Of a stretch of DNA of 32,385 nucleotides, positions 6,341 through 18,168 are shown in pieces (the first letter of the stretch is position 1; every line of letters begins with the position of its first letter). The stretch is from Anaerolineaceae bacterium (lineage in GTDB: Bacteria > Chloroflexota > Anaerolineae > Anaerolineales > Villigracilaceae). A program made the position numbers and the translations under genes. Where the stretch lies: positions 1-32,385 of the forward strand of contig VFJR01000134.1 of the NCBI GenBank assembly GCA_009885945.1, in the 5' to 3' direction. The notes under the pieces were generated by a model that did not search any database, had not been told where the DNA came from, and worked only from the letters and a program-made list of their open reading frames with translations.

Positions 6341-7306
6341 ATGACAACTTTATTCGATTCAACAAAAACTGTAAAATCTGAATTGTCGAATCAAAAATAT
6401 ATCGCGTCTGATGAAATTGCGACGATCGTGTATCTCGCGCAGAAGCTTGGCAAGCCGCTTTTGGCAGAGGGACCTGCAGGCGTAGGTAAAACTGAATTGG
6501 CAAAAGCAATTGCAGGCGCGACAGGACGCGAGTTGATCCGTTTGCAATGTTATGAAGGCTTGGATGAATCCAAGGCTTTGTACGAGTGGGAATATTCAAA
6601 GCAATTGTTATATACACAATTATTACGCGATAAATTAAATGATACTGTCGGCAAGGCAAACACATTAAGCGAAGCGGCGGATAAATTAGCAAAAGAGGAA
6701 GATGTGTTTTTCTCCAGCAGATTTTTACTACAACGTCCGCTGCTCAAAGCAATTTTGAGCGAACAACCAACCGTTTTATTAATCGATGAAATTGACCGCG
6801 CTGACGCAGAATTTGAAGCGTTTTTGTTGGAGATATTAAGTGATTTTCAAGTCAGCGTTCCAGAGTTGGGCACACTCACCGCGAAACATAAACCGTTCGT
6901 AATTCTCACATCAAACAACACCCGCGAACTTTCAGAAGCATTAAAGCGGCGCTGTTTGTATTTATTTATCAACTATCCCAATTTAGAAGAAGAACTGGCG
7001 GTGGTGCGCTTAAAAGTTCCAGAATTAAACCAAAAGCTCGCGCAACAAGCTGTGGAGTTTGTTCAAAAATTACGTAAGTCTGACATGCGTAAATCGCCGT
7101 CTATTAGCGAAACTTTAGACTGGGCAAATGCGCTGGTGGCTTTGAATGCATCTAATTTAGATAAGGAAACATTGCAAGACACGCTTTCAGTATTATTAAA
7201 GCACGAAGCCGATTTGCAAAAAGCAAAAAGACAGTTACTGTCTCCCCCTCCTCAGCAACCAAAGCAAAGACCGCCTGATGACTTTGGAAAGTTTTCTGGA
7301 AATTAA
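6341..7306 (+). CDS. MoxR-family AAA+ ATPase (CoxD-like)
   Basis: A 321-residue AAA+ chaperone of the MoxR group, which with a VWA partner remodels or loads metal sites in client proteins. Walker A is GPAGVGKT (44-51), Walker B VLLIDEID (145-152), and the sensor-1 region has ILTSNN; the segment ELIRLQCYEGLDESKALYEW is typical of CoxD-like members. The C-terminus is a Pro/Gln-rich tail ending DDFGKFSGN. ATG 6341 is chosen over GTG 6335 because the moxR remnant at 4509 starts at the same residue; AAGGTG lies just upstream. The usual VWA partner is at 10276, separated by a sulfotransferase and a reversed membrane protein. No cox structural genes lie in the window, so the client is unknown. Confidence 0.9.
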   Translation: MTTLFDSTKTVKSELSNQKYIASDEIATIVYLAQKLGKPLLAEGPAGVGKTELAKAIAGATGRELIRLQCYEGLDESKALYEWEYSKQLLYTQLLRDKLNDTVGKANTLSEAADKLAKEEDVFFSSRFLLQRPLLKAILSEQPTVLLIDEIDRADAEFEAFLLEILSDFQVSVPELGTLTAKHKPFVILTSNNTRELSEALKRRCLYLFINYPNLEEELAVVRLKVPELNQKLAQQAVEFVQKLRKSDMRKSPSISETLDWANALVALNASNLDKETLQDTLSVLLKHEADLQKAKRQLLSPPPQQPKQRPPDDFGKFSGN

Positions 7307-8251: not shown

Positions 8252-10183
8252 TTATTTATGCTGATACACCCGTCCTTCATTATCTTCATACAGAATGGAC
8301 CACTCATCATTCCAAGACGCAGTCTCTAACTTGGGCGGATAATTTTCTTCTTTTCCTTTTTGCCATGCGGTTCTAAGAATCACTATATAGTCCGCAGGTT
8401 TAAGTAAAGAAATAGAATTTGTAAATTCGGGTCCGTATAAATAAAAAGGCAGTCCATTCTCGATCCGCACGACTGAATTGCGAACATTTTTATGCAGATA
8501 ATCAAAGGGGCTATTATAGCCATCCACCCCTACGCTCTCGCTATACTGGTCTTCAAGCACATTGAGATTTGATAAAGTCGGTAAAAAATACGAGCGGCGC
8601 TCCCATACTATTAACAAAGCCAAACAACCTATTATGCTAAGAAAAATCAAGTTGGTTTTGGGTGAGCTAAACATCTGCTTATATATTTTAACAAGCCAAG
8701 GTTCAAACTCTACAACAATAGCAATGAATAAAAAGGTCAATAAGGCAATTCCAAACCTCCATGAGAAGTACGGCTTTACATCTGCTGGGTGAACAAATCC
8801 AGAGGCTGGGGTTGCTATAAAACTTATAAAAAGGATAAGAAAAACGATGCTGAAAGCCCAAATTGATCGTTTACGATAGATCGCCATGCAAAAAGACCAG
8901 ATTAAAACTCCAAGAGTCGCTATCATTGCAAAAGGAATATTGCTAAACAAATTCGGATTCATTAAATTATTTAAAATGCTTTGATCTTGCAGTTTTAGAG
9001 CCGCTGAAGAAAAAATCATGTCTTGGGCGATAACATTCCTTAATATCCAAAGAAGCCCAGGGAGAATCAAAATAAAATACCCTGCAAGGTTTTTGATCTT
9101 TAAAATAATATTCTCTCTGGCTGAGCTTTGCAGGTAAAGGTAAATAGCATAGCCCCAGGCTGGAACAACGACAAAGACCGCATTGGGCTTTACGCTTAAT
9201 GCGATCATCGTTGTCATTGCCATACCCAACGGATACCAAGAATACTCTTTGGGTTTGGCGCTAACAGGCGCATGTAATATTACTGCTAGTATGCTAGCCG
9301 CCAAAAACAAGTCGTTTTTACCGATGGCGTCATAAAAAACCAAGCGGTATATCCACCAAATATTTAAACTTTTATCGCGCCAGACCAATCCGCTAACAAG
9401 CAAGCAAATTACAACCAAAAAACTAAATCCAACAGGAAGGTTTGTATATCTACACAGAAGAAACCAGAAGGTCAAAACAAAGAACAAGACCCCTAATGCA
9501 TGCATTGACCCAAACAATATTCCACTTTTGGTTAAAAGCACAGCAAAAGAAAACAAAGACTCATAGCCAAATGGATACTCACCATAAGGAATTGACAAAT
9601 CCCAAATAGATGCGGTGTTCGCAAGTTCGATGGCTTTAGGGAAATGATATAACCCAACATCCCAGGCTAATATCGGATTAACTGCTGAATAGGGCCAAAT
9701 GATAAGAGGCACAAGGATTACGAAGACCAAAATAAACATGCCAAACCCAAGCAAAATATATTCTGTTAAATGTAGATCACTGGCGCGGCGAAAAATAATT
9801 TTGTGAAAATCTTTAAACCAGTATTTGGTATAAAAAAAATAAACCACTGGCGTTAAGCATAAAACAAACGGCAGAACAAGCTCAATACGGTATATTTTCA
9901 AATACCCAAACACTTGAGCAGAGCCTATGGCGCTGTATAGAAACGCTACTATAATGGCATATATCCTAACCCAATTAATTTCATAGTTGATCCAAGCCAA
10001 TACGATAAGAGCAAGAACGCAGAAGAGCACCCGAAAAACAATTGCAGTTGAAGGTGTTAAAAAACTAAGGTCATTGTCCGTTGACAATCCATCAAAAAAT
10101 AATTTGAGCCAGCTAAATGGTAAAACCATCAAGGTTAAAAGAGCAGATGAAATAGAAACAGCGCCCCACTTAAAAATTTTCAT
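8252..10183 (-). CDS. Polytopic membrane protein, GT-C glycosyltransferase-like
   Basis: A 643-residue protein with about a dozen hydrophobic segments and a short soluble C-terminal part of about 110 residues. After the fourth or fifth membrane segment comes WDVGLYHFPKAIE, an Asp-bearing outside loop like those in GT-C (PMT/ArnT-type) enzymes, which use lipid-linked sugars. Overall similarity to a named family is not evident, so the function is inferred. The start ATG 10183 has AAGG seven bases upstream. It is AT-rich, points against all its neighbours, and ends nine bases from the sulfotransferase stop with no terminator visible between them. It separates moxR from its VWA partner and was probably acquired. 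It could instead be an O-antigen or teichoic-acid-type polymer enzyme. Confidence 0.7.
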   Translation of the reverse strand: MKIFKWGAVSISSALLTLMVLPFSWLKLFFDGLSTDNDLSFLTPSTAIVFRVLFCVLALIVLAWINYEINWVRIYAIIVAFLYSAIGSAQVFGYLKIYRIELVLPFVLCLTPVVYFFYTKYWFKDFHKIIFRRASDLHLTEYILLGFGMFILVFVILVPLIIWPYSAVNPILAWDVGLYHFPKAIELANTASIWDLSIPYGEYPFGYESLFSFAVLLTKSGILFGSMHALGVLFFVLTFWFLLCRYTNLPVGFSFLVVICLLVSGLVWRDKSLNIWWIYRLVFYDAIGKNDLFLAASILAVILHAPVSAKPKEYSWYPLGMAMTTMIALSVKPNAVFVVVPAWGYAIYLYLQSSARENIILKIKNLAGYFILILPGLLWILRNVIAQDMIFSSAALKLQDQSILNNLMNPNLFSNIPFAMIATLGVLIWSFCMAIYRKRSIWAFSIVFLILFISFIATPASGFVHPADVKPYFSWRFGIALLTFLFIAIVVEFEPWLVKIYKQMFSSPKTNLIFLSIIGCLALLIVWERRSYFLPTLSNLNVLEDQYSESVGVDGYNSPFDYLHKNVRNSVVRIENGLPFYLYGPEFTNSISLLKPADYIVILRTAWQKGKEENYPPKLETASWNDEWSILYEDNEGRVYQHK

Positions 10184-10275
10184 GGCTAAACCTTTCTTCT
10201 ACACAAGCAATTTCGCAATTCGGGCATATGAACATAACTGATTATAACTAATCGAGCGCACAGTAGGAAAAAACT

Positions 10276-11652
10276 ATGGAATCTCGCATCTTACAATTGA
10301 TTGCCGCATTACGCGCCAGTGGAGTGCGTGTGTCATTAGCAGAATCGGCTGAGGCATTTTCGGCTGTGGATTTGATGGGGGTTCAAAACCGCGAAGAATT
10401 TCGTTTATCACTGCGCGCCACGTTAATCAAAGATTTGAAAGACATGCCGACGTTTGAAAAATTGTTTCCGCTGTTCTTTGGGTCGGGGCAGCCGCCTGAG
10501 ATGGGCGGAAACCCTTCGGATGAGATGACGCCCGAAGAAGCGCAGATGTTGGCTGAGGCGTTGAACCAGTTTGCGCAGAGTCTTCGTCAGCGAATGGAAA
10601 GGCTGATGGACGGCGAACAGCTTTCCCGCGCGGAGCTTGAGGCGCTGGGTCAGATGACTGGGCTGAATCAGGCGCAGAATCTCAGTTATCAAAACTGGAT
10701 GGCACAGCGCATGATGCGCGCGATGGCGTTCCCTGAAGTTCGACAGGCGATCAAAGAGTTGCTGGAACAGCTTGCGCAAATGGGCATGAGCCGCGAACGT
10801 TTGGAACAGATGCGGCAGATGATCCAGCAAAATATGCAGGGCATGCAGATGCAAATGGAGCAATTTGCAGGAGAACGCATTGCTGAAAATTTAAGCGAGC
10901 AACCGCGCAATGAAAATGTTGATGCACTGCTTAATCGCCCCTTTGAATCTTTGTCAGATTCAGACAAGCAACTTTTACAACGCGAGGTAAAAAAACTTGC
11001 CGCCGCGCTACGCACACGCATTGCATTACGGCAAAAACGCGCCAAGAATGGAAAGATGGATGCCAAAGCCACTATCCGCGCCAGCATGAAATATTACGGC
11101 GTGCCGATGGAAATTAAATTTCGCAATCGCATTCACAAACCAAAGATCGTGGTCATCTGTGATGTGAGCACGTCTATGAGATTTTGTTCGGAGTTGATGT
11201 TGAGTTTTCTTTTTGCTTTGCAAGGACAAGTGCGTAAGACGCATGCCTTTGCATTCATTGACCATCTTGAATCCATCTCGGAGGACTTCAGCGGCTCGAA
11301 TGCAGATGAAGCGATCCAGTCTGTTCTGTGGCGCATGCCCAGCGGACATTACAACACCGATTTGGGCTGGGCATTAAATAATTTTAACAATGATTATATG
11401 GATACATTAAATAGCGGGACAACGCTGATCATCGTTGGAGATGGACGCAACAACTATAACGATCCACGCCTCGACATTTTCTCACGCATGTCCCGCCGCT
11501 CCACACGTACCATTTGGCTGAATCCTGAACCCGAGCATTTGTGGCACGGTGACAGTGACATGGCAAAATACAAGCCCCTGTGCAGTAATGTGTTGAAGGT
11601 CAGCAATTTGAGAGAGTTGGCAGATGCGGTGGATGATTTGATGACGGGGTGA
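10276..11652 (+). CDS. VWA-domain protein, CoxE-like partner of MoxR
   Basis: A 458-residue cytoplasmic protein. The N-terminal ~85 residues resemble the CoxE-like lead region (LRASGVRVSLAESAEA). Residues 88-200 form a Met/Gln/Glu-rich helical region with several QMxQM-type runs. The VWA domain starts near residue 288 with the metal site DVSTSM (296-301), and the later MIDAS Thr/Asp positions plausibly lie in HYNTDLGWAL and IIVGDGRNN. Such proteins work with MoxR ATPases to remodel client enzymes. ATG 10276 has AGGA eight bases upstream. The gene is followed at once by the composite inverted repeat at 11654. The MoxR gene lies 2.97 kb upstream instead of next to it. Confidence 0.88.
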   Translation: MESRILQLIAALRASGVRVSLAESAEAFSAVDLMGVQNREEFRLSLRATLIKDLKDMPTFEKLFPLFFGSGQPPEMGGNPSDEMTPEEAQMLAEALNQFAQSLRQRMERLMDGEQLSRAELEALGQMTGLNQAQNLSYQNWMAQRMMRAMAFPEVRQAIKELLEQLAQMGMSRERLEQMRQMIQQNMQGMQMQMEQFAGERIAENLSEQPRNENVDALLNRPFESLSDSDKQLLQREVKKLAAALRTRIALRQKRAKNGKMDAKATIRASMKYYGVPMEIKFRNRIHKPKIVVICDVSTSMRFCSELMLSFLFALQGQVRKTHAFAFIDHLESISEDFSGSNADEAIQSVLWRMPSGHYNTDLGWALNNFNNDYMDTLNSGTTLIIVGDGRNNYNDPRLDIFSRMSRRSTRTIWLNPEPEHLWHGDSDMAKYKPLCSNVLKVSNLRELADAVDDLMTG

Positions 11653-11653
11653 G

Positions 11654-11758
11654 AGACCCCCTCCCAGCCTCCCCCAAATACGACAGTTGAGCGCTTGATA
11701 ATATAAAAAGTTTATATGTCGTATTTGGGGGAGGTGCCCGATAGGGCGGAGGGGGTCT
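11654..11758. repeat. Composite inverted repeat with T-tract (MITE-like element or terminator)
   Basis: Two nested arm pairs are exact: 11654-11664 (AGACCCCCTCC) with 11748-11758, and 11668-11685 (18 bases beginning CCTCCCCC) with 11717-11734. Between arms on the right is a small hairpin, GCCC-GATA-GGGC (11736-11747), and the loop holds another, TATAAA..TTTATA. On the plus strand the last arm runs into TTCTTTTTTG, so it can end VWA transcription. The symmetry and GC-rich arms also fit a non-autonomous mobile repeat. No transposase gene is in the window. Confidence 0.75.
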
Positions 11759-11800
11759 TCTTTTTTGTTGGTAAAATCAATCATTCATATGGGAGAGACA

Positions 11801-14800
11801 ATGACCTTTAGCAAAGAAGAAGCTCGAATCAAAATTGCAAAGCTTGTGGAAGATTTTCGTGCGCATGAAACTACGCTAGAGAAAGCAGCTGAGGCGCAGA
11901 TTGAGAATAATTTTATTCGTCCGTTATTTCGTTATTTGAATTGGAATACGGAGAATGAGGGGCTTTCGCACGCGCATTATGAATTCAAGGTACAGGTCAC
12001 AAATAAAAAGGGACTGCGACCTGATTACATTTTGAATTTGGACGGACGCGATGTATTGGTGATGGATGCCAAGCAGGTCAAGTATTCCATGAAAGACCCG
12101 CGCTGGCTGTATCAAGTTTATTCATACGCATATTCCACACAGAACAGCAAGCCTTCTGAAAAAATGGACTTTGCCATTTTGACAGACTTTCAGGAATTCA
12201 TTGTTTTGGATTGCACATTATTCGCGGCAAAGCCCGAAGCGGTGAATAATTTCAGGGTAATTGATTGGACGTATAACGATTACGTGGATAAGTTCGATGA
12301 GTTATGGGAGTTGTTTGAGCGGAATAATGTTTTGAATGACAGCCTTCCGCATGTCATTGCGAGCCGTTCTTTGGCGAAGCAATCTGTCACAGATGAGGGG
12401 ATTGCTTCGGGGCAAAGCGCGCCCCTCGCAAAGACATCACGCGGACTTTGGTCTCGTTATCTTTCCCCGCAAAAAGTAAAAGCGAATCGCATTTCACCAG
12501 ACAAAGCCTTTCTCGCAGAAATGGATGATGAGAAAACTGGCTGGCGTGTTTTGCTTGCAAAGGATATGAAGAAGCGCAATCCGTCAGCCGACGGGGAACT
12601 CATTACGGCAGCTGTGCAATTATTAATTGACCGCCTTATTTTTATTAAAGCCCTTTCAGATCGTGAAGTAGACAAAGATTATCTTGCTGAATTGGCAAAA
12701 GTTGTTGAAGAAAATGGTTTGGCAGATAATGATACAGGTTGGTTCAAAGCCTGCAAAAACATTTTTGATGAATTGAACAATTTTTACAACGGCAGTATTT
12801 TTCAGGAACGGCGCGAACTGGAAAATATCATTGTTTCAAATAAAGTCGTTCGCTCGGTAATAACAGATTTACAGCCTGAGAATTCACCGTATAACTTTGC
12901 GGTTCTGCCCGTGGAAATTCTCGGCACGATCTACGAACGCTTTTTGGGGCGTGTGGTTCGCACGACCGACAAGCAAGTCAAAATTGAAGAGAAGCCCGAG
13001 GTACGCAAAGCGGGCGGCGTGTATTACACCCCGCAATACATCGTGGATTATATTGTCGAGAACACACTTGGAAAACTATTAGAAGATTGCAAAACTCCCA
13101 TTGACGTTTCCAAATTAAAAATCCTTGACCCAGCCTGCGGATCGGGTTCATTTTTGCTGGGCGCGTACAGCAAGTTGATCGAATGGCACAAGGATTATTT
13201 TGCGCGCGCTGGCAAAGAAAAGCGTGACCGTGAATCTTTTTACAAAGACGAAAGCGGAGGCATTCGATTAACCGCCAAACTCAAGCGCGAAATATTAAAG
13301 AACAACCTCTTCGGCGTGGACATTGACCCGCAAGCCGTGGAAGTAACGCGCTTCTCGCTTTCGTTGAAGGCGCTGGAAGATTTGCGTGAAGGCGAACTGA
13401 CCGAGGAACGCTCACTCTTTCACCAGACCGTTTTGCCTGATTTGAGTCAGAATATCAAGAATGGGAATAGTTTGATTGGGTCGGATTATTTTGCGGGGCA
13501 ATTAATGCCAGATATTGAAGAAATGAAAACAATTAAAGGGTTTGACTGGAAAAGTGAGTTTTCAGAAATCTTTCAGAATGGTGGTTTTGATGTGGTCATT
13601 GGAAATCCGCCATACGGAATTGTGTTTAAAGAAGAAATAAAACCTTATTTAGAAAACCGATACCCATCATTTGTCAGAAACAATGATACATACACAGCCT
13701 TCACTGAGAAATGTCTATATCTTCTGCGTGAAGAAGGTCAGTTTGGTTTTATTATTCCCAACACGTATCTACTCGGACCATATTTTGACACATTAAAAAC
13801 AAAAATACTATCCCTTGCAAGCGTTCAAGAAGTTATTGATTTTGGAACAAATTCAATATTTGAACAGCCCAATGTTTTTACAGGGTTATTGTTCTTCGAG
13901 AAAAAGAATTTACCAAACGCTACATCATCTCGTTTTGCAAAAGTACTGGATGTGTCATCCTTCCCTAATGGAATAGTGTTCACAGAAATAAACACCGACG
14001 TACTGCAAAGTTTACGCTGGTCTCCTGTAAACCCAATAGTTGCGAAAACTTTATCTACCAATGTCAAGTTAGCAAGCCTAGCATGGGTAAAAGATGTTGG
14101 ATTAAATTACTGGACACAAGGAAGAGGAAAAACACGCGGAGGCTCAATCGCAGACAGAGTTATGTATGATGGCGAGAAACAAAACCAAAACGACAAACCT
14201 TACCTAAAGGGAAGAGATATCGAAAGATATGCAATTAAATTTGGGAATCACTGGCTTAGACATGATTACAAAAATATGCTTGACCCAAAAGTAGATACTT
14301 TACGGTTTAGCTCAGAGTTTTTGGAAAGAGAAAAGATTGTTTATAGACAAACAGCAGATCACCCGATTGCGTCGCTTGATCAAAGCAAAATACTAACAGA
14401 CAAAACCGTTCACGTTATTGTCCTTCACCAAGAGTTGGAATCCACTTTAAATTTGCGATACTTGTTAGGTATTTTAAATTCTCAGCTACTAAACTATATT
14501 TACAAGTCAGTAGCACAAGAAGAAGGAAGAACTTTTGCTCAAGTCAAAATTTTTCGGATTAAAGAGCTACCCATCCGCACGATTGACTTCACGGACCCTG
14601 CCGAAAAGTCTCAGCACGAGAAGATGGTCGTGCTGGTGAGTCAAATGCTGGAGTTGCACAAGTCCAGGGCGGGCGCGAAGACTCAATCTGAAACAGATGT
14701 GTATGCGAGGCAGATCAAGTCTGTGGATGAGTCTATTGATACTTTAGTCTATGAATTGTATGGGTTGACGGAAGAGGAAATAAAGATTGTAGAAGGGAAG

Positions 14801-14803
14801 TAA
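11801..14803 (+). CDS. Type IIG restriction-modification enzyme (Eco57I-like), nuclease and methylase in one chain
   Basis: A 1000-residue fused enzyme. N-terminal PD-(D/E)xK-like nuclease: RPDY (73-76) then VLVMDAK (85-91, Asp89/Lys91). Helical middle region, then an N6-adenine methylase with YYTPQYIVDYIV (408-419), SAM motif ILDPACGSGSF (441-451) and catalytic NPPY (602-605). A target-recognition region of TaqI-C type follows (about 770-900, with YLKGRDIERYAIKFGNHW). Start ATG 11801 has GGGAGAG close upstream; an in-frame TTG at 11765 would add 12 unlikely residues. Residues 184-213 are encoded by an inserted palindromic repeat. The recognition region, about 13600-14570, is AT-richer than its flanks, which suggests domain exchange. 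Two bases separate it from the HEPN gene. Confidence 0.92.
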   Translation: MTFSKEEARIKIAKLVEDFRAHETTLEKAAEAQIENNFIRPLFRYLNWNTENEGLSHAHYEFKVQVTNKKGLRPDYILNLDGRDVLVMDAKQVKYSMKDPRWLYQVYSYAYSTQNSKPSEKMDFAILTDFQEFIVLDCTLFAAKPEAVNNFRVIDWTYNDYVDKFDELWELFERNNVLNDSLPHVIASRSLAKQSVTDEGIASGQSAPLAKTSRGLWSRYLSPQKVKANRISPDKAFLAEMDDEKTGWRVLLAKDMKKRNPSADGELITAAVQLLIDRLIFIKALSDREVDKDYLAELAKVVEENGLADNDTGWFKACKNIFDELNNFYNGSIFQERRELENIIVSNKVVRSVITDLQPENSPYNFAVLPVEILGTIYERFLGRVVRTTDKQVKIEEKPEVRKAGGVYYTPQYIVDYIVENTLGKLLEDCKTPIDVSKLKILDPACGSGSFLLGAYSKLIEWHKDYFARAGKEKRDRESFYKDESGGIRLTAKLKREILKNNLFGVDIDPQAVEVTRFSLSLKALEDLREGELTEERSLFHQTVLPDLSQNIKNGNSLIGSDYFAGQLMPDIEEMKTIKGFDWKSEFSEIFQNGGFDVVIGNPPYGIVFKEEIKPYLENRYPSFVRNNDTYTAFTEKCLYLLREEGQFGFIIPNTYLLGPYFDTLKTKILSLASVQEVIDFGTNSIFEQPNVFTGLLFFEKKNLPNATSSRFAKVLDVSSFPNGIVFTEINTDVLQSLRWSPVNPIVAKTLSTNVKLASLAWVKDVGLNYWTQGRGKTRGGSIADRVMYDGEKQNQNDKPYLKGRDIERYAIKFGNHWLRHDYKNMLDPKVDTLRFSSEFLEREKIVYRQTADHPIASLDQSKILTDKTVHVIVLHQELESTLNLRYLLGILNSQLLNYIYKSVAQEEGRTFAQVKIFRIKELPIRTIDFTDPAEKSQHEKMVVLVSQMLELHKSRAGAKTQSETDVYARQIKSVDESIDTLVYELYGLTEEEIKIVEGK
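12351..12437. repeat. 87-bp palindromic repeat inserted in frame in the RM gene
   Basis: The left arm ATGTCATTGCGAG..GAAGCAATC (12351-12384) is mirrored by GATTGC..CTCGCAAAGACAT ending at 12437, with mismatches in the middle of the arms. The length is 29 codons, so the frame is kept; it encodes a stretch beginning HVIASRSLAKQS. The CATTGCGAG/GAAGCAAT core is characteristic of dispersed palindromic elements in several bacterial groups, some of which (Rickettsia palindromic elements) are known to sit in frame inside genes. It lies in a linker between nuclease and methylase regions, where extra residues would be tolerated. Confidence 0.85.
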
Positions 14804-14805
14804 AA

Positions 14806-15360
14806 ATGTCTGAAATAAGCAATAATTCTGCTATTTTAATTGCTACAAGTTTTCAAGCCTTAAATCGGGCTAAAGCTGGCGATAAATCCACAATACTTTG
14901 CAATTGTACTGTGACCATATTATTCGCAAGTTTTTTTATTGAAGAGAATCTTGATGTCATAATAAAAAGAATGAACAAAGATCACGAAATGAAAAAATTC
15001 TTGATGATAAAAAAACACGAACACCCTGGTTTATTGGATAAACTTGCTTGGTATTTCAATTACTACTCTGCCAATCCAAAAGCAGATAGACGAGAAAAAT
15101 TATTCACAAATAGACTCGAGGGAAGATTAAATAAAAGATTTCCAGGATTTAAAAGGATTTATCAAATCCGAAACGACGTAGCACACGGGAAAATTAATCG
15201 TCACTTAAATCTCAAAGAGACTGAAGAGTTGAGAGTTAAAGCAAAAGCCGTTGTTGATGATTTATTAGATATTGCTGCGATTGCTGGCTGTAAAATCCAA
15301 AGAAACATTACATATGAAATGGCAATTGCAAATAGCTCACAACAACTCACAGACAGTTAA
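14806..15360 (+). CDS. Small HEPN-motif protein downstream of the RM gene
   Basis: A 184-residue, mostly helical protein. The segment RIYQIRNDVAHGKIN (117-131) holds R122-N-D-V-A-H127, matching the HEPN signature R-x4-H with a polar residue after Arg; in HEPN RNases this pair is catalytic. The rest fits a helical bundle, but I cannot place it in a named subfamily. Start ATG 14806 lies two bases after the RM stop, and the ribosome site (AGAAGGGAAG) is inside the RM gene end, so translation is probably coupled. No nucleotidyltransferase (MNT) partner is near. Role inferred: an RNase or toxin guarded by the RM enzyme, or simply a HEPN binding protein. AT-rich compared with its neighbours. Confidence 0.75.
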   Translation: MSEISNNSAILIATSFQALNRAKAGDKSTILCNCTVTILFASFFIEENLDVIIKRMNKDHEMKKFLMIKKHEHPGLLDKLAWYFNYYSANPKADRREKLFTNRLEGRLNKRFPGFKRIYQIRNDVAHGKINRHLNLKETEELRVKAKAVVDDLLDIAAIAGCKIQRNITYEMAIANSSQQLTDS

Positions 15361-15365
15361 ATATG

Positions 15366-15428
15366 ATGATTAGAAACTTTTCGCAAATGCTGGAGTTGCA
15401 CAAATCCAAAGCGGGCGCGAAGAAGTGA
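15366..15428 (+). pseudogene. Leftover duplicate of the RM gene C-terminal coding segment
   Basis: The frame MIRNFSQMLELHKSKAGAKK then stop repeats the RM segment SQMLELHKSRAGAK encoded near 14638-14680. At base level 15383-15422 matches 14641-14680 at 36 of 40 positions. The RM gene continues for about 40 codons after this point, but the copy stops. It lies directly behind the HEPN gene, so the HEPN gene is flanked by two copies of an RM tail. This is best read as a recombination scar, not a working gene. Confidence 0.75.
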
Positions 15429-15474
15429 TGAAAGTCATCTTACATCTGAAAATTTTCCCTGGGACGGAATTAAA

Positions 15475-15891
15475 ATGACAAATTCAATTTTCTCTTACAC
15501 TCTCATCATTCCAAAAAGCGCCATTGATGTAAACGGTCACGTCAACAATGTGGCATACCTGCAATGGATGCAGGACGCGGCAGTGCGCCACTACACCACC
15601 ATCATCGGTGCGCAGGCTATGGGCGCTACCGAAACCTGGGTTGTACGCGAACATCGCATTGAATATTTATTGCCTGCTTTTGTTGGCGAAGAAATAGAAG
15701 TGCAAACATGGATTGCGAACGCACGCCGCATCCGTTCACAAAGACAATATCGCTTCATTCGCAAGTCAGATCGTCAATTGCTGGTGCGCGGCGAAACCGA
15801 TTGGGTCTTTGTGGATATAAAAAGCGGAAAGCCTGTTGCCATCCCAAAAGAAATCATCAGCCTTATGCCTGTGATGCCAAACGAAACGTAA
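15475..15891 (+). CDS. Acyl-CoA/acyl-ACP thioesterase, 4HBT hotdog fold (YbgC/FadM-like)
   Basis: A 138-residue single hotdog domain that hydrolyses acyl thioesters. The motif DVNGHVNNVAYLQWMQDAA (residues 18-36) is the typical helix-start signature: an Asp near the start, GHVNN, then a tyrosine. The following strands (REHRIEYLLPAFVGEEIEVQTW) match the fold. Chain-length preference cannot be read. ATG 15475 has a GGA eight bases upstream. A two-way terminator follows at 15890, so this gene probably ends its own transcript. It may serve fatty-acid salvage or a lipid product. Confidence 0.9.
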   Translation: MTNSIFSYTLIIPKSAIDVNGHVNNVAYLQWMQDAAVRHYTTIIGAQAMGATETWVVREHRIEYLLPAFVGEEIEVQTWIANARRIRSQRQYRFIRKSDRQLLVRGETDWVFVDIKSGKPVAIPKEIISLMPVMPNET

Positions 15892-15924
15892 AATAAAACC
15901 GACCCTCAAGGTCGATTTTATTTT
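15890..15924. terminator. Two-way terminator after the thioesterase gene
   Basis: AAAATAAAACCGACC (15890-15904) pairs with GGTCGATTTTATTTT (15910-15924) around the loop CTCAA, with one mismatch. Poly-A before and poly-T after the GC stem are typical of an intrinsic terminator; its first bases overlap the stop codon. Confidence 0.85.
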
Positions 15925-15964
15925 AAGGTACACTTGCCATAAATATATTTCACCGGAGAATATC

Positions 15965-17083
15965 ATGTCAGAAGTTAACACCATCATTATCGGCGCGGGC
16001 GCGGCAGGCTTGGCAGTCAGTGCCTGTCTTAATCAAGCGGGTGTTTCAAATATAATTCTTGAACAAAATAGCAATGTTGCGTCCACTTGGCGCAGACATT
16101 ATGACAGACTGCATCTACATACCGATAAGAAAAAATCTGAACTGCCTTTTATGCCATTTCCAAAAGAATATCCGCGTTATATCTCGCGCGATCAATTGGT
16201 CAAGTACATGGAAGAATACGTTCAAAAATTTAATGTAGATATCCGACTCAACCAGCAGGTTCAAAGCGCCAAGCAGGATTCTGGTCACTGGCAGGTACAA
16301 ACCCAAACAGCGCTTCATACTGCGCCCAATCTTGTTGTGGCGACAGGATACGCTCGCGAACCCCTCAGCCCCACCTGGAAAGGCATGGAAACTTTCCCCG
16401 GCAAAGTCATGCACAGTTCAGAGTATAAAAACGGGGCTGAGTTCAAAGGCAAAAATGTTTTAGTAGTTGGTTTTGGGAATTCGGGCGGGGAGATCGCCGT
16501 TGATCTTTATGAGCATGGCGCAAAACCCAGCCTTGCTGTAAGAAGCGCCGTCAATGTAATTCCGCGTGAGTTATTTGGTATCCCCATTTTATCGATCGGC
16601 ATTGTAATGAATTTACTACCACCCAAAATCGCAGACATGGTCAACGCGCCGATTTTACGGGCAGTTCTGGGCGATATTACCAAGCTGGGCTTGCGCAAAT
16701 CAGCTTATGGTCCAGGGATGCAAATCCGCGAACAAAAACGCATTCCGTTGATTGACGTGGGCACGATTAAATTAATCCGTGCAGGTCACGTCACAGTCTA
16801 TTCAGGCGTGGATTCGTTTGCAGGAAACAGGATCAAGTTTGAGGGCGGGAAAGAAGCGGCGTTTGATGCGGTGATTCTAGCAACGGGCTACCGTCCACGC
16901 GTAAATCAATTTCTGCAAGATGCCGCACAAGCAGTAGATGAGCACGGCACGCCTACTACTACAGGAAAAGAATCTGCGCTTTCTGGTTTATATTTTTGCG
17001 GATTCTATGTTTCACCAACAGGCATGCTGCGCGAAATCAGCATTGAAGCAAAACAGATCAGCGCGGCTATTTCGTCAAAGTAG
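15965..17083 (+). CDS. Flavin-containing monooxygenase (YUCCA/CzcO-like)
   Basis: A 372-residue class-B flavoprotein monooxygenase using FAD, NADPH and O2. FAD site GAGAAG (10-15); the region HYDRLHLHTDKKKSELPFMP is typical of YUCCA-like enzymes; the FMO identifying motif FPGKVMHSSEY (144-154) is intact; NADPH site GFGNSG (169-174); ATGY motifs at 126 and again near the C-terminus (ILATGYRP). The length fits short bacterial members. YUCCA enzymes make indole-3-acetate from indole-3-pyruvate, but bacterial relatives oxidise varied substrates, so the substrate is open. ATG 15965 sits 41 bases after the terminator, behind a CGGAGAA ribosome site. The acyltransferase follows 11 bases later. Confidence 0.92.
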   Translation: MSEVNTIIIGAGAAGLAVSACLNQAGVSNIILEQNSNVASTWRRHYDRLHLHTDKKKSELPFMPFPKEYPRYISRDQLVKYMEEYVQKFNVDIRLNQQVQSAKQDSGHWQVQTQTALHTAPNLVVATGYAREPLSPTWKGMETFPGKVMHSSEYKNGAEFKGKNVLVVGFGNSGGEIAVDLYEHGAKPSLAVRSAVNVIPRELFGIPILSIGIVMNLLPPKIADMVNAPILRAVLGDITKLGLRKSAYGPGMQIREQKRIPLIDVGTIKLIRAGHVTVYSGVDSFAGNRIKFEGGKEAAFDAVILATGYRPRVNQFLQDAAQAVDEHGTPTTTGKESALSGLYFCGFYVSPTGMLREISIEAKQISAAISSK

Positions 17084-17094
17084 TAATTTTCAAG

Positions 17095-18168
17095 ATGGTT
17101 CACATGCGTCAACGCTTTATACACATTGATATCGCAAAAGGGATTGGGATATTATTTATTGTCTTTAGCCATAACTGGATTCTCGCAAATTACAAAGGGG
17201 AGTTAATTCAAGTAGCATATTCATTCCCAGTGGTTATGTTTACCGCCTTATCTGGGATATTTTTCAACGCCGGTCTGCCTTTCTTAAAAACGTTGATCCA
17301 AAAAGCGGACTCTTTGATCAAACCATATTTCGCCACTCTGATCATCGTTGAACTTTTGTTTCATCTTTTCACTGTTCAAGAAAAAAGCTTGGGAGAAAGT
17401 TTCTTTGGCATTTTGTACGGCACAGGCAATCTGCTTCGATATCCCGCATTATGGTTTTTACCTAATTTGTTTGTAGTAACTATTTTTGCATGGCTTTATA
17501 TCAATATACTTAAATTAGACAGATCAAAAACTATTTTAAATTTTATTATTCTTTCTATCATGCTTGCTGTTGGAGTTTATTTCATCCGTGAGTTTTGGGG
17601 GGTGATCTTCACCATCAACGGAAAACCTCTCAAGCGCTTTGACCTGCCTTTTAGTAAATTATGGGGTCTGCCTTTTGGTATAGACGTAGTGTTTATTACG
17701 GGCTTTTATTTCATTCTGGGCTACGTGTTACGCCCTGCCATCGAATCGATAAAATTCAATATAGTTGGCTTTATGACCTGCCTAATCGCCTTTATTTTAT
17801 TAAATTATTTCTCAACTGACGTTATGGATATCAATATTCGGAAGTACGGCTCGCTGATTCCCACTACTGCGATTGCCCTGCTGGGCATTTATTTAACTCT
17901 CTCGTTTTCTGTGTTGATTTCACATTTTGGAAAAGCTGCATCTGCGCTTACACTGCTCGGCGAAAATAGCCTGGCAGTGTATTTATTTCACACATCTTTG
18001 CAGGAATATACTTTTAGCATTCTTAATGTAGTAGGCTCTTACAAAACCCTGAATGCATTAATTGCCTATGCAGTTGGCATCATCATCCCATTACTTTTGG
18101 TGCAAATCATCAAGAGGATTTGGGTATTAAGGATTCTTCTTTTGCCTATTCAGCGGGCTAAAAACTGA
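17095..18168 (+). CDS. Membrane acyltransferase (Acyl_transf_3 / OafA-like)
   Basis: A 357-residue protein with about ten membrane segments. It starts RQRFIHIDIAKGIGILFIVFSHNW, in the family pattern in which a His in the first membrane segment (FSHNW) is catalytic, and it ends with the LxxLGENSLAVYLFHT motif typical of this group. It moves an acetyl or other acyl group onto a sugar or lipid at the membrane. Translation may begin at ATG 17095 or at ATG 17104; neither has a strong ribosome site. Only 11 bases follow the monooxygenase stop, so co-transcription is likely. A two-way terminator ends the unit at 18268. Confidence 0.88.
   Translation: MVHMRQRFIHIDIAKGIGILFIVFSHNWILANYKGELIQVAYSFPVVMFTALSGIFFNAGLPFLKTLIQKADSLIKPYFATLIIVELLFHLFTVQEKSLGESFFGILYGTGNLLRYPALWFLPNLFVVTIFAWLYINILKLDRSKTILNFIILSIMLAVGVYFIREFWGVIFTINGKPLKRFDLPFSKLWGLPFGIDVVFITGFYFILGYVLRPAIESIKFNIVGFMTCLIAFILLNYFSTDVMDINIRKYGSLIPTTAIALLGIYLTLSFSVLISHFGKAASALTLLGENSLAVYLFHTSLQEYTFSILNVVGSYKTLNALIAYAVGIIIPLLLVQIIKRIWVLRILLLPIQRAKN

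Follow-up and report, generated by a model that had tools for sequence, protein, structure and literature searches.

A Type IIG restriction-modification (RM) gene of an Anaerolineaceae bacterium is followed by a HEPN-like gene and then by a second, partial copy of its own 3′ end. The window in which this is seen is the whole stretch of DNA analysed, 32,385 nucleotides of contig VFJR01000134.1. The second copy, at 15384-15423, is probably a scar of gene turnover, in which the RM-anchored arrival of a new 3′ end with a passenger gene stranded the end of an earlier RM gene. The repeat itself is plain, copies of the same kind recur among relatives on one side and one strand of the RM gene, some of these orphan gene ends derive from foreign alleles, and one pair of genomes can be compared at the same site.

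The repeated gene end and its surroundings

Loci (L) and genomes (G) are cited by our own numbers, and the features of the window are as follows.

10276-11652, + strand: VWA/CoxE gene, left border of the variable interval (Pfam VWA_CoxE)
11801-14803, + strand: Type IIG restriction-modification gene, 1000 aa (Pfam Eco57I 7.7e-39, TaqI_C 7e-25; PADLOC REase_MTase_IIG 1.5e-139)
11801-13614, + strand: RM body, conserved with L031, L032, L033, L046 and L047 (blastn, protein sliding windows)
13615-14560, + strand: exchangeable recognition-domain segment, related to L045 (blastn, protein sliding windows)
14560-14803, + strand: resident (functional) RM tail, grouping with the body clade (tail profile 1-59 at 14621-14797)
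14642-14681, + strand: first copy of the 40-nt repeat, within the resident tail (repeat search)
14806-15360, + strand: cargo gene, HEPN-like 184-aa protein (weak Pfam HEPN_MAE_28990, RNDVAH motif)
15384-15423, + strand: orphan tail remnant, putatively the displaced end of a former RM gene (37 of 40 bases shared with the resident tail)
15426-15428, + strand: in-frame TGA behind the remnant, distinct from the RM stop (sequence)
15475-15891, + strand: thioesterase gene, right border (Pfam 4HBT_2)

An earlier note on this DNA had paired 15383-15422 with 14641-14680 at 36 of 40 bases. The repeat is real but its register was one base off: the copies lie at 14642-14681, in the RM gene, and 15384-15423, agree at 37 of 40 bases (93%, three differences) and form the longest direct repeat reported within 10000-18000. 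When the organism's own genome (95.68% complete) was searched with 15366-15428, it returned, besides the query, the RM copy (E 2e-10) and no third copy of the repeat. The remaining seven matches span 14-22 bases at E 0.35 or worse, so that chance or a dispersed repeat can be ruled out as the source of 15384-15423, the RM copy being its only match of any length.

The remnant corresponds to codons QMLELHKSKAGAK of the RM tail and matches positions 5-20 of the 59-position tail profile, the last ~40 codons of the tail being absent. The same note had the copy end in a stop, which does not hold for the stop of the RM gene. The codons that follow in frame are AAG and then TGA (15426-15428), which adjoins the matched stretch; it is not a retained RM stop, because the equivalent position in the RM gene is mid-gene, with some 40 tail codons still ahead. 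Among 61 RM tails the remnant scores best against that of L033, the window's own tail coming second by a small margin, and the 40 bases of the window cannot by themselves tell which tail is older.

The gene between the two copies encodes a protein that falls below the Pfam cut-offs for HEPN families (HEPN_MAE_28990, 19.6 vs 26.8 bits; a second match, 15.4 vs 28.4 bits), and its translation contains RNDVAH, comparable to the Rx4-6H motif of HEPN proteins. Its structure model is all-helical and of low confidence (mean pLDDT 61.9); no PDB match was found at E ≤ 0.001, and two HEPN structures are among the weak matches. Around its homologues in G292, G081 (a copy with one in-frame TAG) and G298, the 11-13 kb fetched hold no RM tail on the strand of the homologue, and the idea that the HEPN gene is an obligate RM partner was rejected on these grounds. 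It is likely to be an independent passenger, with a predicted RNase or abortive-infection type function by analogy with its family. In L190 and L191, from two genomes, a homologue stands directly before one further gene, presumably an asparaginyl-tRNA synthetase, and the place is a candidate insertion hotspot.

The VWA and thioesterase genes that border this region occur on one contig in G067, G057, G041 and G029 (four of 20 fetched loci), 1.25 to 6.9 kb apart. Because this spacing varies, the RM and HEPN genes of the window sit in a variable interval. Two repeat-like sequences were also noted here. Between the VWA and RM genes, 11668-11734 is a MITE-like inverted repeat with 33-nt arms that are 79% complementary, and L031 is about 75 nt shorter at this place; within the RM gene, 12344-12442 holds an in-frame insert of ~84 nt with a REP/MITE-like look, which adds ~28 residues relative to L033, L034 and L046.

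Orphan gene ends among relatives

The RM protein, used as query against 150 relatives, gave matches in 77, with short tail matches behind some of the RM genes. A profile of the tail (A1, 59 positions, built from 32 tails) was matched in 75 of 301 genomes of the order Anaerolineales. The order-wide search listed 137 places, of which 62 lie in frames of at least 450 aa, taken as possible RM genes and not individually checked, and 64 in frames of at most 160 aa. Of the 64 short-frame tails, 19 have a long-frame tail within 5 kb, and every one of these lies downstream of it on the same strand; 11 of the 62 long frames are followed in this way. The other 45 have none within that distance, and many are therefore without a visible parent gene.

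The fetched loci give the same picture for 57 RM genes, a survey that excludes the duplicate contigs L130 and L145 as well as L035, lacks L038 because the contig cuts its gene, and kept the window remnant at a looser cut-off (E 0.07) than other orphans (0.01). Twenty-four downstream same-strand tail matches are spread over 15 of these genes and the other 42 have none; the 233 kb downstream hold no orphan tail on the opposite strand, and the 139 kb upstream none on either strand. Dissociated 3′ fragments lying downstream in the orientation of the intact gene, the criterion of the rhs type, are thus seen in 19 of 19 and 24 of 24 cases. Since 23 of the 24 matches begin past profile position 3 and 19 extend to position 57 or beyond, the typical orphan is a 5′-truncated gene end, and the window remnant, which lacks the gene end, is atypical. 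The 5′ ends vary along the tail, with profile starts from 2 to 45. In L036 and L038 the frame of the orphan is open and its start overlaps the end of the cargo gene. That orphan tails in general are selected peptides is unlikely, as those of L108 and L032 are frameshifted.

A phylum-wide search of 301 genomes gave a tail match in 53 and added cases outside the order: G585 has three tails behind one RM gene, one of them in a 214-aa frame, and G609 has one. The distal tail match of L195 (8638-8706) lies in a transporter-like ORF and was not counted as a scar. At L124 (4305-4574, − strand) and L107 (5671-5850) the RM body is missing, the first ~40 codons being fused in frame to the RM tail, with cargo genes following.

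Stranded ends are also found behind other genes. Orphan 3′ ends of the VWA gene lie downstream of it in five of 20 fetched loci (L166, twice, L167, L168, L169 and L175), four of which were fetched for their known orphan (G053, G016, G023, G092), giving an unpicked rate of 1/16 (L175). In L166 and L167 an MNT and HEPN pair stands between the VWA gene and its orphan end. A scan of 756 ORFs in 103 loci, themselves chosen for RM, VWA or tails, counted 40 orphan ends downstream on the strand of their gene and none on the other strand, along with 11 matches upstream, again on the same strand. The 11 upstream matches, in L108, L115, L054 and L126, look like repeats or antisense ORFs, and three of the 40 (L175 2850, L176 6598, L108 4152) are doubtful for the same reason; 12 further matches fall within long ORFs and do not count as orphans. 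A few further genes have orphan ends downstream, in L034, L033, L051 and L139. At L034 1-1209 a 403-aa gene upstream of the RM gene is followed by two orphan copies of its own 3′ end before the RM gene begins.

Duplication of a gene end with the gene restored is the hallmark of site-specific integration, and the layout of the window would fit a recombinase acting at the 3′ end of the gene, with the HEPN gene as what is left of a degraded element. The variation of the orphan 5′ ends leaves no fixed core, and because the truncation points vary a fixed attachment site is disfavoured; scars also stand behind VWA and a few other genes. We regard such an origin as very improbable and favour turnover of gene ends.

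Orphans as probable older alleles or local copies

If orphans are ends of earlier genes, they should not simply be copies of the resident tail. Between 21 orphans (the two frameshift-split orphans of L108 each counted once, L112 excluded) and their resident tails there are 162.5 synonymous and 131.5 non-synonymous differences, with pS 0.371 and pN 0.087, a divergence about four times greater per site at synonymous sites. The non-synonymous share is 45%, compared with 77.5% expected without selection (binomial p 9e-34, the rows not being fully independent). In 20 of 21 orphans pS exceeds pN; by plain count, six of the 21 have more non-synonymous than synonymous differences, which speaks against this reading. 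L043 was left out of the comparison as well. On balance these figures support the view that orphan and resident tails differ in the manner of separately selected alleles. The orphans of L108 and L032 are frameshifted and yet carry the synonymous bias, so that selection, at least there, acted before stranding.

When each of the 21 orphans was scored against 61 RM tails, its own resident tail was best for 12 and the tail of another genome for nine. The foreign tail is clearly better (score margin above 10) for six, those of L113, L110, L111 (two), L108 6507 and L032, and the own tail ranks 51st of 61 for L113, 22nd for L110, and 6th and 23rd for L111. Judged by their letters, the orphans of L113, L110 and L111 come from another RM lineage than the resident gene. 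Status as another allele, not a copy, is clear for six of 21 orphans, with the own tail best for 12 of 21, and the 40 bases of the window do not decide for either.

The arrangement could instead have begun as a local tandem duplication of the RM tail, by slippage or unequal crossing, with the HEPN gene inserted between the copies later. Such duplication does occur: at L112 3439-3816 the end of the RM gene, spacer included, is present as a 123-nt tandem duplication with units 94-96% identical. In L106 two orphans lie about 200 nt apart with no gene between them, and at 6826-7203 the 60 nt after the resident tail, which include an inverted repeat, are identical to the 60 nt after the first orphan, the tails themselves being different; these spacers would speak for local duplication or a mobile spacer at that locus. 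The 12 orphans that match their own resident tail best are likewise expected from local duplication or gene conversion. Against this stand the per-site bias towards synonymous change, which is present despite the frameshifts in L108 and L032 and places the divergence before the orphaning, and the orphans of L113, L110 and L111, which belong to other RM lineages. A third argument comes from genomes compared at one site.

L052 (G077) and L062 (G072) match on both flanks of the RM gene. The two share 87-92% identity block by block over the RM body and 88% over the resident tail, with the recognition segment in between replaced. The flank into which the L062 gene end runs is found in L052 behind the orphan (96.6% identity over 1087 columns that include the orphan), and the orphan thus occupies the place of the gene end. 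The earlier note had proposed to look in sister genomes for a single tail joined to the RM body at the site of the orphan, and such a junction is found at this other site, where the L062 gene end leads into the flank of the L052 orphan. The stop position of the L052 orphan reads CAG, not TAG. The L052 resident tail ends about 110 bases earlier, followed by a stretch bounded by an inverted repeat. Two points limit the comparison: just ~100 bases and no gene lie between resident tail and orphan, and the letters of the orphan are closer to the L052 resident tail than to that of L062, though the flank is that of L062, as gene conversion, or a crossover inside the tail, would produce. At L052 5800-5914 and in L032 the same ACCTGACAGGTTT-type repeat stands directly after the RM stop, and small inverted-repeat elements may be common at such junctions.

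For the window's own locus no empty site was found, the four fetched contigs with VWA and thioesterase genes having other genes between them. L031 shares the left flank of the window (ATPase, VWA, RM) and has one tail, no HEPN gene and a different right flank.

Local duplication is insufficient as a general cause, given the synonymous bias and the foreign best matches, and stays a rival at single loci; for the window we consider it unlikely, though the foremost alternative. Orphans are in good part old gene ends, because the layout recurs, synonymous change prevails, foreign tails match best in some cases and the L052 orphan leads into the L062 flank, even though some loci look like local duplications. 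Of what the earlier note proposed, displacement of an older RM tail agrees with the recurrence, with the allele-like divergence and with this shared flank; the other part of its proposal, a single cassette, fares less well.

Unit of movement and a proposed mechanism of turnover

The RM gene of the window is of type IIG, with an adenine-type methyltransferase fused to a TaqI-like specificity domain (Eco57I and TaqI_C both above cut-off); for a putative nuclease domain in the N-terminal region there is a weak match to HSDR_N (13.2 vs 25.1 bits). It is also a mosaic. DNA similarity ends at 13614-13615 against L031, L032, L033, L046 and L047 and at 13491 against L034 (blastn), and picks up again at 14560-14570 in L031, L032, L033, L034 and L047, not in L046. 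In the protein, aa 1-580 are mostly 65-100% identical to L031, L033 and L047, with lower values or no data at the insert (181-220). For aa 601-920 identity to these three falls to 7-45%, as against 52-85% to L045 (25-27% at 701-760), and for aa 921-980 it is 72-82%, as against 50-60% to L045. Among the seven compared, the recognition domain (aa ~600-920) is thus nearest to L045, and the body and last ~80 aa are nearest to L031, L033 and L047. As body and tail are of one lineage and the recognition domain is of another, the domain has been exchanged between them. A different kind of rearrangement was noted in L074 (G114:C8), where two N-terminal RM half-copies lie ~6 kb apart without a tail, their last 60 residues identical.

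The earlier note had supposed that recognition domain, new tail and HEPN gene entered as one cassette. In favour of this, the recognition domain does not belong to the body clade and the HEPN gene starts 2 bases past the RM stop, and a later swap of the recognition domain alone would give the same picture as separate arrival; but the tail groups with the body and not with L045, the relative of the recognition domain. A second comparison comes from L036, L050 and L129, of three genera, which share a block from the RM tail through a RhuM gene at 81-86% DNA identity. Their RM bodies are less alike (67-79% in matched pieces), and no DNA match was found among the three over the recognition segments. 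Past RhuM they have no common right flank, and L036 and L129 have no common left flank, the L050 contig starting at the RM gene. Directly behind the RhuM stop stands a tail remnant, which the profile detects in L036 and L129; in L050 one is visible by eye, not by profile. Since tail and RhuM are common to the three genomes and the recognition segments are unrelated, tail and cargo travel together and the recognition domain does not. Linkage of recognition domain and cargo is not supported by these loci, nor by the window, where aa 601-920 resemble L045, and we think entry as one cassette improbable, more so than local duplication. Turnover by tail and passenger, with separate exchange of the recognition domain, is the reading we retain.

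Passengers are varied. The cargo of L036 is RhuM, that of L049 a DUF559 protein, and that of L108, on the opposite strand, a protein just under the HEPN_AbiU2 cut-off. L107, with no intact RM gene, holds a series of tail, AAA ATPase with DUF4276 (HEC-01-like), tail, DUF3800, tail, unknown gene and tail. Most other scanned cargo (L037, L038, L067, L106, L110, L111, L113 and L107 9139-9918) gave no family match above cut-off, and a defence character of the cargo is therefore shown for a part only.

In the mechanism that we propose, incoming DNA would recombine into the RM gene, anchored in RM homology, and would bring a complete 3′ end followed by a passenger gene, which in the window is HEPN-like. 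The 3′ end of the earlier RM gene would be stranded downstream and decay there, and repeated rounds would build an array of tail, cargo, old tail, older cargo and older tail. Swaps of the recognition domain would be separate events, in which the segment lying between conserved body and conserved tail is exchanged. Joining could proceed by one-sided homology with illegitimate joining, or by a single crossover of a circle that carries tail plus cargo. We infer both this joining and the order of events in the window.

The closest known events are C-terminal displacements at rhs and type VI secretion system (T6SS) loci. According to Jackson et al. (2009, PMC2935791), displacement at rhs loci was proposed to occur by a single crossover of a circle. 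Like the RM loci, rhs loci there have a conserved core, an exchangeable C-terminal part and dissociated 3′ fragments downstream of the intact gene, with homologous recombination in the conserved part, as proposed here (PMC2935791). Unlike rhs, where Rhs C-terminal tips are displaced (PMC2935791), it is here the end of a restriction-enzyme or VWA gene, with separate passenger genes in between. For T6SS arrays, a 2017 paper (PMC5361080) proposes homology-facilitated illegitimate recombination, with successive insertions that push older downstream genes away, much as we suppose for RM loci. The T6SS arrays retain immunity genes (PMC5361080), whereas here a broken gene end is retained and the cargo can be unrelated to the RM gene. 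Exchange of recognition domains in type I and IIG RM genes (for example PMC3077401) is also a movement of sequence in RM genes and comparable to the swap at aa 600-920; by itself it would not be expected to leave a second gene end with cargo in between. In the open-access literature searched, no description of gene-end displacement at RM genes was found. We therefore see a new setting, the RM gene and the VWA gene, of a known kind of event.

The observations suggest that new genes, partly of defence type, are slotted in at the end of the RM gene and the older end is left behind. To our knowledge, it is poorly resolved by what route individual defence genes that bring no transposase or integrase of their own come to accumulate in islands. 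We prefer to regard stranded gene ends as a readable record, which marks the event, gives its direction and can identify the earlier occupant. A more speculative and rather doubtful extension is that Chloroflexota would offer, at the ends of their restriction and housekeeping genes, landing platforms that need no recombinase, where a passenger's copy of the platform end would act as the homology arm that restores the gene, giving integron-like, time-ordered defence arrays by general recombination alone. If turnover of this kind is general, the history of insertions would be readable from single genomes, and the ends of RM and VWA genes would be places to look for unrecognised defence genes.
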